Positions 8,467-12,072 of a stretch of 43,412 bases of DNA are shown here, one piece after another. Source of the stretch: a virus; IMG/VR virus record IMGVR_UViG_3300023313_000012, positions 1-43,412 of that record; one strand, written 5' to 3'. The position numbers and the translations under genes are program-made. The notes below the pieces were generated by a model. It was not told the origin of the DNA and did not search any database. It worked only from the letters and a program-made list of their open reading frames with translations. Every line of letters starts with the position of its first letter. Position 1 is the first letter of the stretch.

Positions 8467-8829
8467 ATGGATGAATTATTAAGACAAGATAGCAGCTTTT
8501 TAATAGGCTCAAGAGCTCTAGGAGTAGATACAGAGGCTAGCGATTATGACATAGCCATTACATTAGAAGATTTTAAGAAGTCTAATATATTAGCGGCAAA
8601 AGTCAACAAGAGTTATAATTATACAACTTCACCATTGCTAATGTATAGTAAGCTCTATACACTAAAGAATATAGATATTTTTGTCTTTACTGATAAGACT
8701 AAATTATTAAAGCTGAAGGAAACTTATAATTTTATGGCTAGACTGCCTAAGTTTTTAGTTAGTAATAAAATAAGTAGGATTATAGTCTTTAGATTATCAC
8801 TTTATTATAAAGGTTTTTACGATGGATGA
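8467..8829 (+). CDS. Pol beta-like nucleotidyltransferase
   Basis: 120 residues. The N-terminus has the nucleotidyltransferase signature GSRALG...SDYDIAI (about residues 14-31), giving two metal-binding Asp. A third candidate Asp lies in NIDIFVF (about residue 75). It resembles the small RlaP/MNT-type transferases found in some phages, which may add a nucleotide to RNA or protein; the substrate is unknown. It lies between polymerase and exonuclease and overlaps the exonuclease start by 8 bases, so it is co-translated with replication genes. It is short at the C-terminus compared with RlaP proteins. Confidence 0.75.
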   Translation: MDELLRQDSSFLIGSRALGVDTEASDYDIAITLEDFKKSNILAAKVNKSYNYTTSPLLMYSKLYTLKNIDIFVFTDKTKLLKLKETYNFMARLPKFLVSNKISRIIVFRLSLYYKGFYDG

Positions 8830-9763
8830 ATTAGATATGCTAACTGGTGATATAGACTTAGATGAAATAGTTGATATTGACCTAGATATTGATGGTGGAG
8901 TAATGCCTCCAAAGAATAATAAGATAGCGCTGGTGGATGCTGATACAGTAGCTTACACAGCTTGCTTGAATGTAGAGTTTGAGACTGAGGTATTACCTAG
9001 AGAGTTCTATAGTGATATGGAATGGGATGCTATAGTAAACAGCCCACAATATGATGAAGTTGAAGGAGTGCTATATGAAATAGACCCAAAGCAAGCAGTA
9101 GCTAAGGCACAAGAGAAAATTAATCGTATACTTGAGAAGACTGGCTGTAAAGATGTAGAACTACACTTTAGTGGTAATACTGGTGAGAACTTTAGATTTT
9201 CTGTATTTCCAGAATATAAGTCAAATAGAACTGGTAGAAGCCCTGCAGGATTACATCAGTGTAAAGAAGACCTATGTAAATTATATAATGGTACTATACA
9301 CACTACTTGGGAGGCTGATGATGCTGTCGTATTTCTTAAAGAGACTAACCCTGAGAAGTATATTCTCTGTGCTATTGATAAAGATGTTATCAATAGCATT
9401 GAAGGTACCCATTTTAATTACTATGAGTCTGCTTTATATAAAAAAGAAATGAAGTGGGTAGATGTAGATAGACACACTAGTTTAGTATGGAGATATCTAC
9501 AAACACTTACTGGAGATAAGACAGATGGTATCATTGGGCTACATGGTATAGGGCCTAAGAAAGCGGAGAAAATACTTGCCAATAAATACAGCCATGCTGA
9601 GCTATGGGAAGCAGTATGTGAAGCCTATGTACTTAAAGGTAGAACTAGGGATGAGGCTTTAATGAACTTAAACCTTGTAGATATGAAGCTATTAGTGCAA
9701 GACTCAGAGGACACTATGCCTTATATAAAATTAAGAACACATGAGGAGTTACTAAATGTATAA
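8822..9763 (+). CDS. 5'-3' exonuclease, T7 gp6/FEN-like
   Basis: 313 residues. It removes 5' ends such as RNA primers and resects host or recombining DNA. Motifs: VDADTVAYTA (38-47), YKSNRTGR (132-139), EADDAV (164-169), IDKDV (185-189), and the helix-3-turn-helix segment GDKTDGIIGLHGIGPKKAEK (231-250) with its metal-binding Asp. Residues 1-25 are an Asp-rich extension (DIDLDEIVDIDLDID) not typical of the family. ATG 8822 follows AAAGG. This enzyme supplies the 5' nuclease that the phage polymerase lacks. Confidence 0.9.
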   Translation: MDELDMLTGDIDLDEIVDIDLDIDGGVMPPKNNKIALVDADTVAYTACLNVEFETEVLPREFYSDMEWDAIVNSPQYDEVEGVLYEIDPKQAVAKAQEKINRILEKTGCKDVELHFSGNTGENFRFSVFPEYKSNRTGRSPAGLHQCKEDLCKLYNGTIHTTWEADDAVVFLKETNPEKYILCAIDKDVINSIEGTHFNYYESALYKKEMKWVDVDRHTSLVWRYLQTLTGDKTDGIIGLHGIGPKKAEKILANKYSHAELWEAVCEAYVLKGRTRDEALMNLNLVDMKLLVQDSEDTMPYIKLRTHEELLNV

Positions 9764-10454
9764 TGATGATTATAAGCACTTGGTTAAAACTATATTAATG
9801 CTAGGAGATAGGCAGAGTTGCCGCAACGGTTCACAGCTTATCATACCACACTATAGTTTTACTATCAATAATATGCCTGAAGACCATATACTAAAGTTAC
9901 GTAAGATATATACTAAAGGTGTCTTAGGAGAGTTTAAGACACTAATTAGTAGTGAGAGATTAACTAATGTATCGCAGTTTGAAGCTAATGGTTGTAACTA
10001 CTGGAAAGACTGGGCTGGTGCTAATGGTTCTCTTAACCTAGACTACTATAATGAGCTTCACCCAGCTTTACACAATGTTATACAGCAGATTAAAGAAGAC
10101 CCTTATAGTAGAAGGCATGTAATTAGTCTGTGGAATAACGAGCACGCTTTTAATAATACTTTATCACTACACTGCTGCTGGCATAACTTGACCTTTAGTG
10201 TAATCAACAGAACACTACATTTAACCTGGACTCAGAGGTCAGTTGATGTAATGGTTGGACTACCTAGTGATGTTCTATTAGCTTATTTATTCATGGACTA
10301 TGTTGCTAAAGAGTGTAATTTAAAAGTTGGCTCTTGCATGTTTAGCTTATCTAATGTACATATCTATAGTGAGCATGAAGAAGGTGCCAAGGAACTGCTG
10401 GAGCGAGATATTAGCTATTATAATGAACCACTGAAGTTTGAGTTAAAATCATGA
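9756..10454 (+). CDS. Thymidylate-synthase family; possible dCMP hydroxymethylase
   Basis: 232 residues. It contains DPYSRRHVISLWN, a catalytic Cys (C141 in LHCCWH), QRSVD (160-164), GLPSD (168-172) and NVHIY. Aligned by eye with E. coli ThyA, D172 falls where ThyA has Asn177, the residue that reads the uracil ring. In T4 dCMP hydroxymethylase that position is Asp, which selects cytosine (established knowledge). So this protein may make 5-hydroxymethyl-dCMP, or methyl-dCMP, rather than dTMP. The N-terminal folate/phosphate Arg region (CRNG) is kept. It overlaps the exonuclease gene by 8 bases and the next gene by 4. Confidence 0.85.
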   Translation: MYNDDYKHLVKTILMLGDRQSCRNGSQLIIPHYSFTINNMPEDHILKLRKIYTKGVLGEFKTLISSERLTNVSQFEANGCNYWKDWAGANGSLNLDYYNELHPALHNVIQQIKEDPYSRRHVISLWNNEHAFNNTLSLHCCWHNLTFSVINRTLHLTWTQRSVDVMVGLPSDVLLAYLFMDYVAKECNLKVGSCMFSLSNVHIYSEHEEGAKELLERDISYYNEPLKFELKS

Positions 10455-10795
10455 TAGTAGGTACTATACTATTAACCAAGGATAATGTCTATGTTAAAGA
10501 TGATGGGAGTTTACCAATAAGGCCAGCCTGGGATAAGGAGTTACTTAAAGGCCTAATAGATGGTGGTAGAGTTAGTGATAAAGCATATGCTATGCTACCG
10601 CCATCTATGCGTAAATTAGTAGAGGTAGATACAAAACTACCTAATATACCAATAACTATTAAGGAGTTAGCTAATGCTGACCTTCTAATAGTTAGTAGAA
10701 GTCTAGAACTTTGTAGAGGTAAAAAGTTTAGATTTGAGAATTTTAGATTACTTTTAAAAGATAGAAAGGTTGAATTATGGATATCAATAAAATAG
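10451..10795 (+). CDS. Hypothetical protein, remotely dihydrofolate-reductase-like
   Basis: 114 residues. The first 60 residues show a faint DHFR-like order: a beta strand (GTILLTKDNVYVK), DGSLPIR (compare the DHFR GxLPW loop), WDKELLKGLIDGGRVSDKAY (compare the helix plus GxxVxxGxxT), and MRKLVEVD. Position directly after a thymidylate-synthase-family gene fits, since phages often pair these. It is too short for a full DHFR (about 160 residues), so it may be a reduced form or unrelated. It overlaps both neighbours. Confidence 0.5.
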   Translation: MIVGTILLTKDNVYVKDDGSLPIRPAWDKELLKGLIDGGRVSDKAYAMLPPSMRKLVEVDTKLPNIPITIKELANADLLIVSRSLELCRGKKFRFENFRLLLKDRKVELWISIK

Positions 10796-11370
10796 CATTA
10801 GAAGAGGCACAAAAGTCTCCGTGTAATAAACGTAAAGTAGGTGCAGTGATTGTAGATAAAACAAAAACTAAGATTTTAGCCAAGGGCCATAATACTCCAA
10901 AAGAAGGTAAGGTTTGCGAAGATACTCGTGGTAACACTTTAGATATTGTAGAACACGCAGAGATAGTAGTAATTAATAAGATTGCTAATCTTAGCGCTGC
11001 AAAGTATATCTATGTAACACATACACCTTGTGAAAACTGCCAAGCTGCTATAAATTTAGCAGGACTTGAGGTTATTATAGTAGATAGCTTTATGAAATTT
11101 GATACTGGTAAATTGCGTTATAGCTTAATACCACCAGAGGCTACTAGAGCCCTAGCTGAAGTACTAACATATGGAGCAAAAAAGTATAAGCCAAATAACT
11201 GGAAGGAAGTAGACGATACTAGCCGCTATACTGATGCTCTATATAGGCACCTAGAAGCATGGAGAGCTGGTGAAGCTAATGACCCTGAGAGTGGACTATC
11301 ACACTTAGCCCATGCTTTAACAAACGTCTCATTTTTATTATATTTTGAGAATAAGGACTCCATATCTTGA
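10777..11370 (+). CDS. Cytidine/dCMP deaminase fused to dATP/dGTP diphosphohydrolase-like domain
   Basis: 197 residues in two domains. Residues 1-105 are a cytidine/dCMP deaminase: HAE (60-62) supplies the zinc His and proton-shuttling Glu, and PCENC (84-88) the two zinc Cys. Residues 106-190 (FDTGKLRYSLIPP, YGAKKYKPNNW, YRHLEAWRAGE, SGLSHLAHA) match the dGTP_diPhyd_N/DUF5664 pattern of phage dATP/dGTP diphosphohydrolases. One chain could thus turn dCMP into dUMP and hydrolyse purine dNTPs, or the C-domain may be regulatory. ATG 10777 follows GAAAGG. A hairpin terminator overlaps the stop. Confidence 0.85.
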   Translation: MDINKIALEEAQKSPCNKRKVGAVIVDKTKTKILAKGHNTPKEGKVCEDTRGNTLDIVEHAEIVVINKIANLSAAKYIYVTHTPCENCQAAINLAGLEVIIVDSFMKFDTGKLRYSLIPPEATRALAEVLTYGAKKYKPNNWKEVDDTSRYTDALYRHLEAWRAGEANDPESGLSHLAHALTNVSFLLYFENKDSIS

Positions 11371-11503: not shown

Positions 11504-11722
11504 ATGGTAACAATCCAAGACTATATAGATAGTCAGCTAGAAGAAATAAATAGTGCTACACTAGCCAAGAAACTACAAGTTTCGTTGAGTATGCTTAGTT
11601 CATATAAGAAGAGTTATAACCCTAGCCTAGACGTAGCTAAACGTGTATATAGAGTGGATAGTATAGCACTACACCCATTTAGTAAAGAGTCTCTAGACTT
11701 CGAAATTTCAAAGGATGCCTAA
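11504..11722 (+). CDS. Small helix-turn-helix protein
   Basis: 72 residues. Residues 17-46 (SATLAKKLQVSLSMLSSYKK, then NPSLDVAKRVY) look like a Cro/XRE-type helix-turn-helix. The C-terminal tail is short. It is the first gene behind its own promoter, so it may be an autoregulated transcription factor controlling phage promoters. The TTAATCTAA elements are candidate sites, which is inference. Its stop overlaps the MazG start. Confidence 0.65.
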   Translation: MVTIQDYIDSQLEEINSATLAKKLQVSLSMLSSYKKSYNPSLDVAKRVYRVDSIALHPFSKESLDFEISKDA

Positions 11723-12072
11723 TGGATAACTTAACAGTACTAAGAGATAAAACACTAGTTTGGTCATATGACCGAGGAATACTAACTAACGGTAAAGCAA
11801 CTACGCAAGCATTAAAGCTGGTGAGTGAGGTTGGTGAGCTTGCAGATAATATTATTAAGGGTAATGATGTTAGGGATGATATTGGTGACTGCTTAGTTGT
11901 ATTAACTAATCTAGCGGCACTTAAGGGAACTACCCTAGAAGCTTGCTGGACTAAAGCATATAATGATATAAAAGACCGTAAGGGTTTTCTAAATGCCGAA
12001 GGTACTTTTATTAAGTCGACTGACCCTAAGTATACTCAGTTACGTATGGAATTCGAGAAGGCTTCAGTATGA
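11722..12072 (+). CDS. MazG-like nucleoside triphosphate pyrophosphohydrolase
   Basis: 116 residues, single MazG domain. The metal-binding signature is SEVGELADNI (E36, E39) and DDIGDCLVVL (D53, D56), in the all-alpha NTP pyrophosphatase pattern. It hydrolyses (d)NTPs to monophosphates, or lowers alarmone levels in some phages. Next to the deaminase/diphosphohydrolase and the thymidylate-synthase-family gene, a role in dNTP pool reshaping (for example dCTP or dUTP removal) is likely. Substrate unproven. Confidence 0.85.
   Translation: MDNLTVLRDKTLVWSYDRGILTNGKATTQALKLVSEVGELADNIIKGNDVRDDIGDCLVVLTNLAALKGTTLEACWTKAYNDIKDRKGFLNAEGTFIKSTDPKYTQLRMEFEKASV

Follow-up and report, generated by a model that had tools for sequence, protein, structure and literature searches.

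We identified, in a 43.4-kb virus record (the whole stretch of DNA analysed, hereafter the window), a natural thymidylate synthase (TS) which is best explained as having been re-aimed at dCMP, probably giving 5-methyl-dCMP, with 5-methylcytosine (5mC) in phage DNA as the likeliest fate of the product. The open reading frame (Table 1) begins with ATG, exceeds the cut-off of the TS family (PF00303, E=2.2e-38) and matches phrog_160 (E=1.6e-48). Its AlphaFold2 model has a pLDDT of 95.7 and the best 50 PDB fold matches are all TSs, so that both profile and fold place it in the TS superfamily. The motif GLPSD172 aligns with GLPFN177 of E. coli and Salmonella ThyA and with D179 of T4 gp42. The initial annotation had read this gene as a TS homologue in which GLPSD172 replaces the ThyA motif and puts Asp at the pyrimidine-reading position, and the profile matches and the alignments confirm it.

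At the DNA level, no known phage matches the window over its first 25 kb. The portal protein of the window shares 48-53% identity with the portals of KF-1, PH1, VPMS1, Amaethon and two Manatee Spring phages, and the window therefore belongs to that group of podophages (short-tailed phages).

Table 1. Coordinates of the TS-family gene, its key residues and its neighbours in the window
Feature	Position	Strand	Basis
TS-family enzyme, predicted dCMP 5-methylase, 232 aa	9756..10454	+	PF00303, AlphaFold2 model, PDB fold matches
D96-Y97, Asp beside catalytic Tyr (EcThyA V93-Y94); D96 codon 10041-10043	10041..10046	+	76/76 in clade
L138 (EcThyA L143; Asp145 in T4 dCH)	10167..10169	+	alignments
Catalytic C141 (EcThyA C146) and W142 (EcThyA H147)	10176..10181	+	alignments
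D172 codon, pyrimidine-reading residue (EcThyA N177, T4 gp42 D179)	10269..10271	+	alignments
TS-type C-terminal tail NEPLKFELKS	10419..10451	+	alignments
Mini-protein with DHFR-like predicted fold, 114 aa	10451..10795	+	AlphaFold2, PDB fold matches, hhalign
dCMP/cytidine deaminase fused to dATP/dGTP diphosphohydrolase N-terminal domain (PF18909, dGTP_diPhyd_N)	10777..11370	+	PF00383 E=1e-16, PF18909 E=8e-34
MazG-like NTP pyrophosphohydrolase, possible dCTPase	11722..12072	+	phrog_1992 E=6e-34, PF03819 E=1e-4

Fixation of Asp at the base-reading position

Eighty TS relatives were fetched from viral contigs by patterns that left out position 177 (E. coli numbering is used for the family), and the clade set comprised 76 distinct TS sequences, including the window and the named phages. 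Asp177 was present in 75 of the 76 sequences from these KF-1/PH1/VPMS1-type podophages, a count which speaks for this clade only since the retrieval patterns demanded CNYW or CC[HW] motifs; the exception, L093, has Asn. All eight canonical TSs compared (seven from phages and one from a Salmonella chromosome) carry Asn177, and on this comparison Asp177 cannot be put down to chance. At position 147, the window and its eight nearest relatives have Trp and the other 67 sequences have His. The window enzyme keeps the equivalents of R21, E58, W80, W83, Y94, C146, R166, D169, H207 and Y209 and is therefore not a decayed gene. Of these, E58, W80, Y94, C146, R166, D169, H207 and Y209 are conserved in 76/76 clade sequences and, held against a canonical dTMP synthase, the window enzyme has this same catalytic set, with Asp172 in place of Asn177.

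The meaning of such a replacement is known from other enzymes. L. casei TS is converted into a dCMP-methylating enzyme by N229D (Liu and Santi 1992, as cited in PMC8670742), N229 corresponding to E. coli N177, and Asp179 of the T4 enzyme (T4 dCH) protonates N3 of cytosine (PMC6400193). In addition, MetaGPA (eLife 2021, PMC8670742) found Asp177 to be a top marker of TS homologues on cytosine-modified contigs, with positions 177 and 147 best separating these from homologues on unmodified contigs. Based on the clade-wide Asp177, the published mutagenesis and the MetaGPA association, we strongly infer that the TS of the window and its clade is specific for cytosine (dCMP).

An Autographiviridae phage (MedDCM-OCT-S28-C10, locus L219, 1477-2235) encodes a second TS homologue, only distantly related, that has Asp177 together with Tyr147 and adjoins an annotated dTMP kinase and a dCMP deaminase. 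The sole Asn177 member of the clade lies at 5983-6798 of L093; its genome (G035) has no detected dCMP deaminase, and NTP-PPase/MazG was not found at the locus.

Genes beside the TS

The TS gene is followed by the DHFR-like mini-protein, the deaminase fusion and then MazG. A deaminase fused to a purine diphosphohydrolase domain, with MazG next door, had been proposed from the letters alone and was recovered by PF00383, PF18909 and phrog_1992; the zinc motif of the deaminase (HAE...PCENC, i.e. HAE plus PCxxC) is intact. A single TS was found in each of 44 genomes, and ThyX was not found in the 15 tested. The deaminase, mostly close to the TS, occurs in 39/44 genomes and PF18909 in 28/44; 2/44 have a match to DHFR that exceeds the cut-off. 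In VPMS1 and Kolga, which carry Asp177, no deaminase was detected. Of the 48 long loci, 41 have an NTP-PPase or MazG in their flanking regions. At L023, whose TS is 64% identical to that of the window, a DNMK-family kinase follows the TS directly, and weaker DNMK-family matches occur at L053 and L061; no recognisable dNMP kinase was found among the window proteins scanned.

The mini-protein, which had no prior annotation, overlaps the TS stop by 4 bases. Its AlphaFold2 model (pLDDT 93.1) has only DHFRs among its best 50 PDB fold matches (E from 1.1e-4, TM about 0.6), and its 16-member family matches phage DHFRs by hhalign (E=6.9e-6, probability 84.5%). Two family members touch PF00186 at a best E of 0.0033, below the Pfam threshold. 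The DHFR fold is seen in the predicted model, and neither a PF00186 hit over the cut-off nor the NADPH GG motif is present. A PDB sequence search with the family alignment gave weak DHFR matches (E 0.2-1.9) behind the unrelated SiaP (0.04), which was set aside as the profile comparison and fold search favour DHFR. Activity as a DHFR is doubtful because the GG cofactor motif is missing. At L030 a full-length DHFR occupies the same slot. Homologues of 114-137 aa without the GG motif lie directly downstream of the TS at L017-L022, L024, L026, L027, L036, L038, L042, L049, L052 and L093.

Two further observations concern the rest of the window. A short Polbeta/MNT-like nucleotidyltransferase of 120 aa (8467-8829) lies between the DNA polymerase and 5'-3' exonuclease genes, and two proteins of one family of unassigned function (phrog_10459) are encoded in distant parts of the genome (5438-5896 and 38330-38797).

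Nature and fate of the product

The published signature of hydroxymethylation combines an Asp at the third position ahead of the catalytic Cys with Ser94-x-Tyr96 (T4 numbering); D145N abolishes the activity of T4 dCH, TS has Leu at that site, and dCH is without the TS C-terminal tail (PMC6400193). In the clade, column 143 (three before Cys) is Leu in 76/76 sequences, as in all TSs; Asp143 was found in all 14 T4-type alignment rows and in three dUMP-hydroxymethylase-type enzymes, and Asn143 in Xp12-type enzymes. The T4 Ser94 column holds Val, Leu or Ile in the clade and no Ser, the window reading Leu-Asp-Tyr. TS features are retained, including W80 (76/76), W83 (71/76) and the C-terminal tail, which reads IKFELKx in the clade versus IKAPVAI in TS. 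In a quick IQ-TREE tree with SH-aLRT support only, in which long branches limit the placement chiefly of T4 dCH and SPO1, the clade (SH-aLRT 99) joins the canonical TSs (95), apart from T4 dCH and the Xp12-type enzymes. Compared with T4-type dCMP hydroxymethylases, then, the window enzyme has the equivalent of Asp179 in D172, but it has L138 for Asp145, no Ser94-x-Tyr96, a retained tail and a place outside their clade. Its pattern is also not that of the SPO1-type dUMP hydroxymethylases (Asn177, Asp143, no W80), and it shares neither clade nor active-site pattern with the Xp12-type candidate dCMP methylases. A scan of viral contigs with SPO1 gp29 found no relative. Since the signature is absent, W83, L143 and the tail are kept, the tree groups it with TS and the fold matches are TSs, the sequence evidence favours a dCMP 5-methylase over a T4-like hydroxymethylase. 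The initial annotation had likened the enzyme to T4-type dCMP hydroxymethylase and named either a hydroxymethyl or a methyl product. Of that likeness the cytosine-reading Asp stands, whereas the Asp145/Ser94 signature, tail loss, clade and fold matches do not, and of the two products methyl is favoured and hydroxymethyl is the weaker.

Two features of the protein count against the methylase reading. An Asp precedes the catalytic Tyr in 76/76 clade sequences and is missing at that column in most canonical TSs, T4 dCH and Xp12-type enzymes. In three-dimensional superposition, T4 Ser94 is described as falling on Val93 of E. coli TS, which is the site of clade D96 (PMC6400193), and D96 might activate water, keeping hydroxymethylation open; it is present also in the Asn177 member L093, and so is not strictly tied to cytosine. 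In addition, about 35-40 residues just before the tail are gone from the window TS relative to its KF-1-type relatives. Both this shortening of the window subclade and the invariant Asp, along with Asp177, would suit an enzyme functioning like T4 gp42 and making 5-hydroxymethyl-dCMP for phage DNA, with Asp96 replacing Asp145 as the water activator. We consider this rather unlikely, as the Asp145 and Ser94 signature is absent, the TS-type tail, W83 and L143 are kept and the tree position is with TS. Moreover, the DHFR-like neighbour would be superfluous if tetrahydrofolate (THF) were the co-product, and the proteins scanned, a set that took in part of the small ORFs, included no recognisable glycosyl- or carbamoyltransferase. 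An ordinary dTMP synthase that acts on dUMP and tolerates Asp177 would agree with the intact TS catalytic residues, the TS-like cassette and the fold, but is very improbable given that Asp is fixed in 75/76 sequences, that this mutation has been shown to switch a TS to dCMP and that position 147 is also altered in the window subclade.

The deaminase raises a different question, namely whether 5-methyl-dCMP is destined for DNA at all. In a dCMP-first thymidylate route, the neighbouring deaminase would convert 5-methyl-dCMP to dTMP, reversing the usual order of deamination and methylation and leaving phage DNA unmodified. The frequency, position and intact zinc motif of the deaminase fit such a route, as do the single TS per genome, the lack of ThyX in the 15 genomes tested and the coincidence of Asn177 with a missing deaminase in L093/G035 (n=1); a lead is given by a paper of 1982 whose title speaks of "new thymidylate biosynthesis" in cells infected with Xp12. 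However, a deaminase would be equally useful for supplying dUMP to the host TS, VPMS1 and Kolga combine Asp177 with no detected deaminase, and MetaGPA links Asp177 with modified DNA, and we hold the route to be improbable, though worth considering. Similarly tentative is a scheme in which one enzyme feeds both bases, whereby the TS would methylate dCMP, the DHFR-fold mini-protein may recycle folate and the deaminase may divert part of the 5-methyl-dCMP to dTMP and leave the rest for use as 5mC in DNA.

In the preferred reading, dCMP methylation for 5mC, the enzyme would be the natural counterpart of the laboratory N177D/N229D TS. The base-reading Asp would protonate N3 and bind the amino side of cytosine, and TS chemistry would then proceed on dCMP by attack of Cys at C6, one-carbon transfer from methylene-THF and hydride transfer, yielding 5-methyl-dCMP and dihydrofolate. 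Dihydrofolate as the co-product agrees with the DHFR or DHFR-like genes that adjoin the TS, and a thymidylate-like cassette (TS, DHFR-like mini-protein, dCMP deaminase and MazG) may have been switched from dUMP to dCMP. We infer dCMP as the substrate and a methyl product; more speculatively, 5-methyl-dCMP would be phosphorylated and used as 5mC in phage DNA while MazG/NTP-PPase removes dCTP, as in Xp12. Counting against this reading, neither a dNMP kinase nor a modification-specific enzyme was recognised among the window proteins scanned, the latter leaving the step into DNA speculative, and the DHFR-like protein is of doubtful activity. The observed/expected ratio of restriction-palindrome 4-mers is 0.84 in the window, 0.70 in T7, and 0.84 and 0.85 in the modified phages T4 and SPO1, respectively; the two modified phages score as the window does, and palindrome avoidance is therefore uninformative on modification. 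In the literature searched we found neither activity or nucleoside data on any clade member nor a dedicated paper with restriction-digest data for KF-1, ETP-1 or ZHX DNA.

Comparison with known systems

The window enzyme appears to be a naturally occurring dCMP-reading TS and is more likely a methylase than a T4-like hydroxymethylase. The Asp switch is textbook mutagenesis, and here it has apparently become fixed naturally throughout a large clade whose named members are mostly annotated just as "thymidylate synthase". In the tree, the TS background of this clade lies apart from T4 gp42 and from the Xp12-type enzymes, which makes the choice between methyl and hydroxymethyl in the TS superfamily testable. 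The clade has culturable members (KF-1, PH1, VPMS1 and Amaethon), the DNA of its isolates is open to mass spectrometry at once, and it might provide a new source of DNA fully substituted with 5mC.

The DNA of phage Xp12 has 5mC for all C. For comparison with Xp12-type enzymes, Bosavirus AXL1 and its relatives stand in for Xp12 (accession MT664984). AXL1, a relative of Xp12, has MazG, a TS with Asp177, a deaminase and DHFR side by side, and its TS (locus L013, 8623-9564; Asp177, Asn143, Pro147) is a candidate dCMP methylase; the genetic mechanism of AXL1 modification has been called unknown (PMC9206674). The window shares with this type Asp177, the C-terminal tail and the neighbouring MazG, deaminase and DHFR-related genes, but the Xp12-type enzymes form a separate clade with Asn143, Pro147, F83 and Tyr176, where the window clade has Leu143, Trp or His147, W83 and Ser or Ala176. 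The mini-protein resembles DHFR in its predicted fold, an aligned Asp at the catalytic position and its place beside the TS, and differs in its length (114 aa versus about 160), the missing IIGG motif and a score below the Pfam threshold.

T4 gp42 belongs to the same superfamily and also has Asp at the pyrimidine-reading position, whereas the window TS is without the Asp145/Ser94 signature, has the TS tail and W83 rather than Val, and falls in another clade. The TS homologues associated with cytosine modification by MetaGPA (PMC8670742) share with it Asp177 and a change at 147; those contigs were selected experimentally. The laboratory dCMP-reading enzymes L. casei TS N229D and E. coli TS N177D have the TS scaffold, the base-reading Asp, W80, W83, L143 and the C-terminal tail in common with the window TS. 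The window enzyme differs from them in being natural, phage-encoded, fixed across its clade and 232 aa long, with CC at the nucleophile and an invariant Asp before Tyr94.
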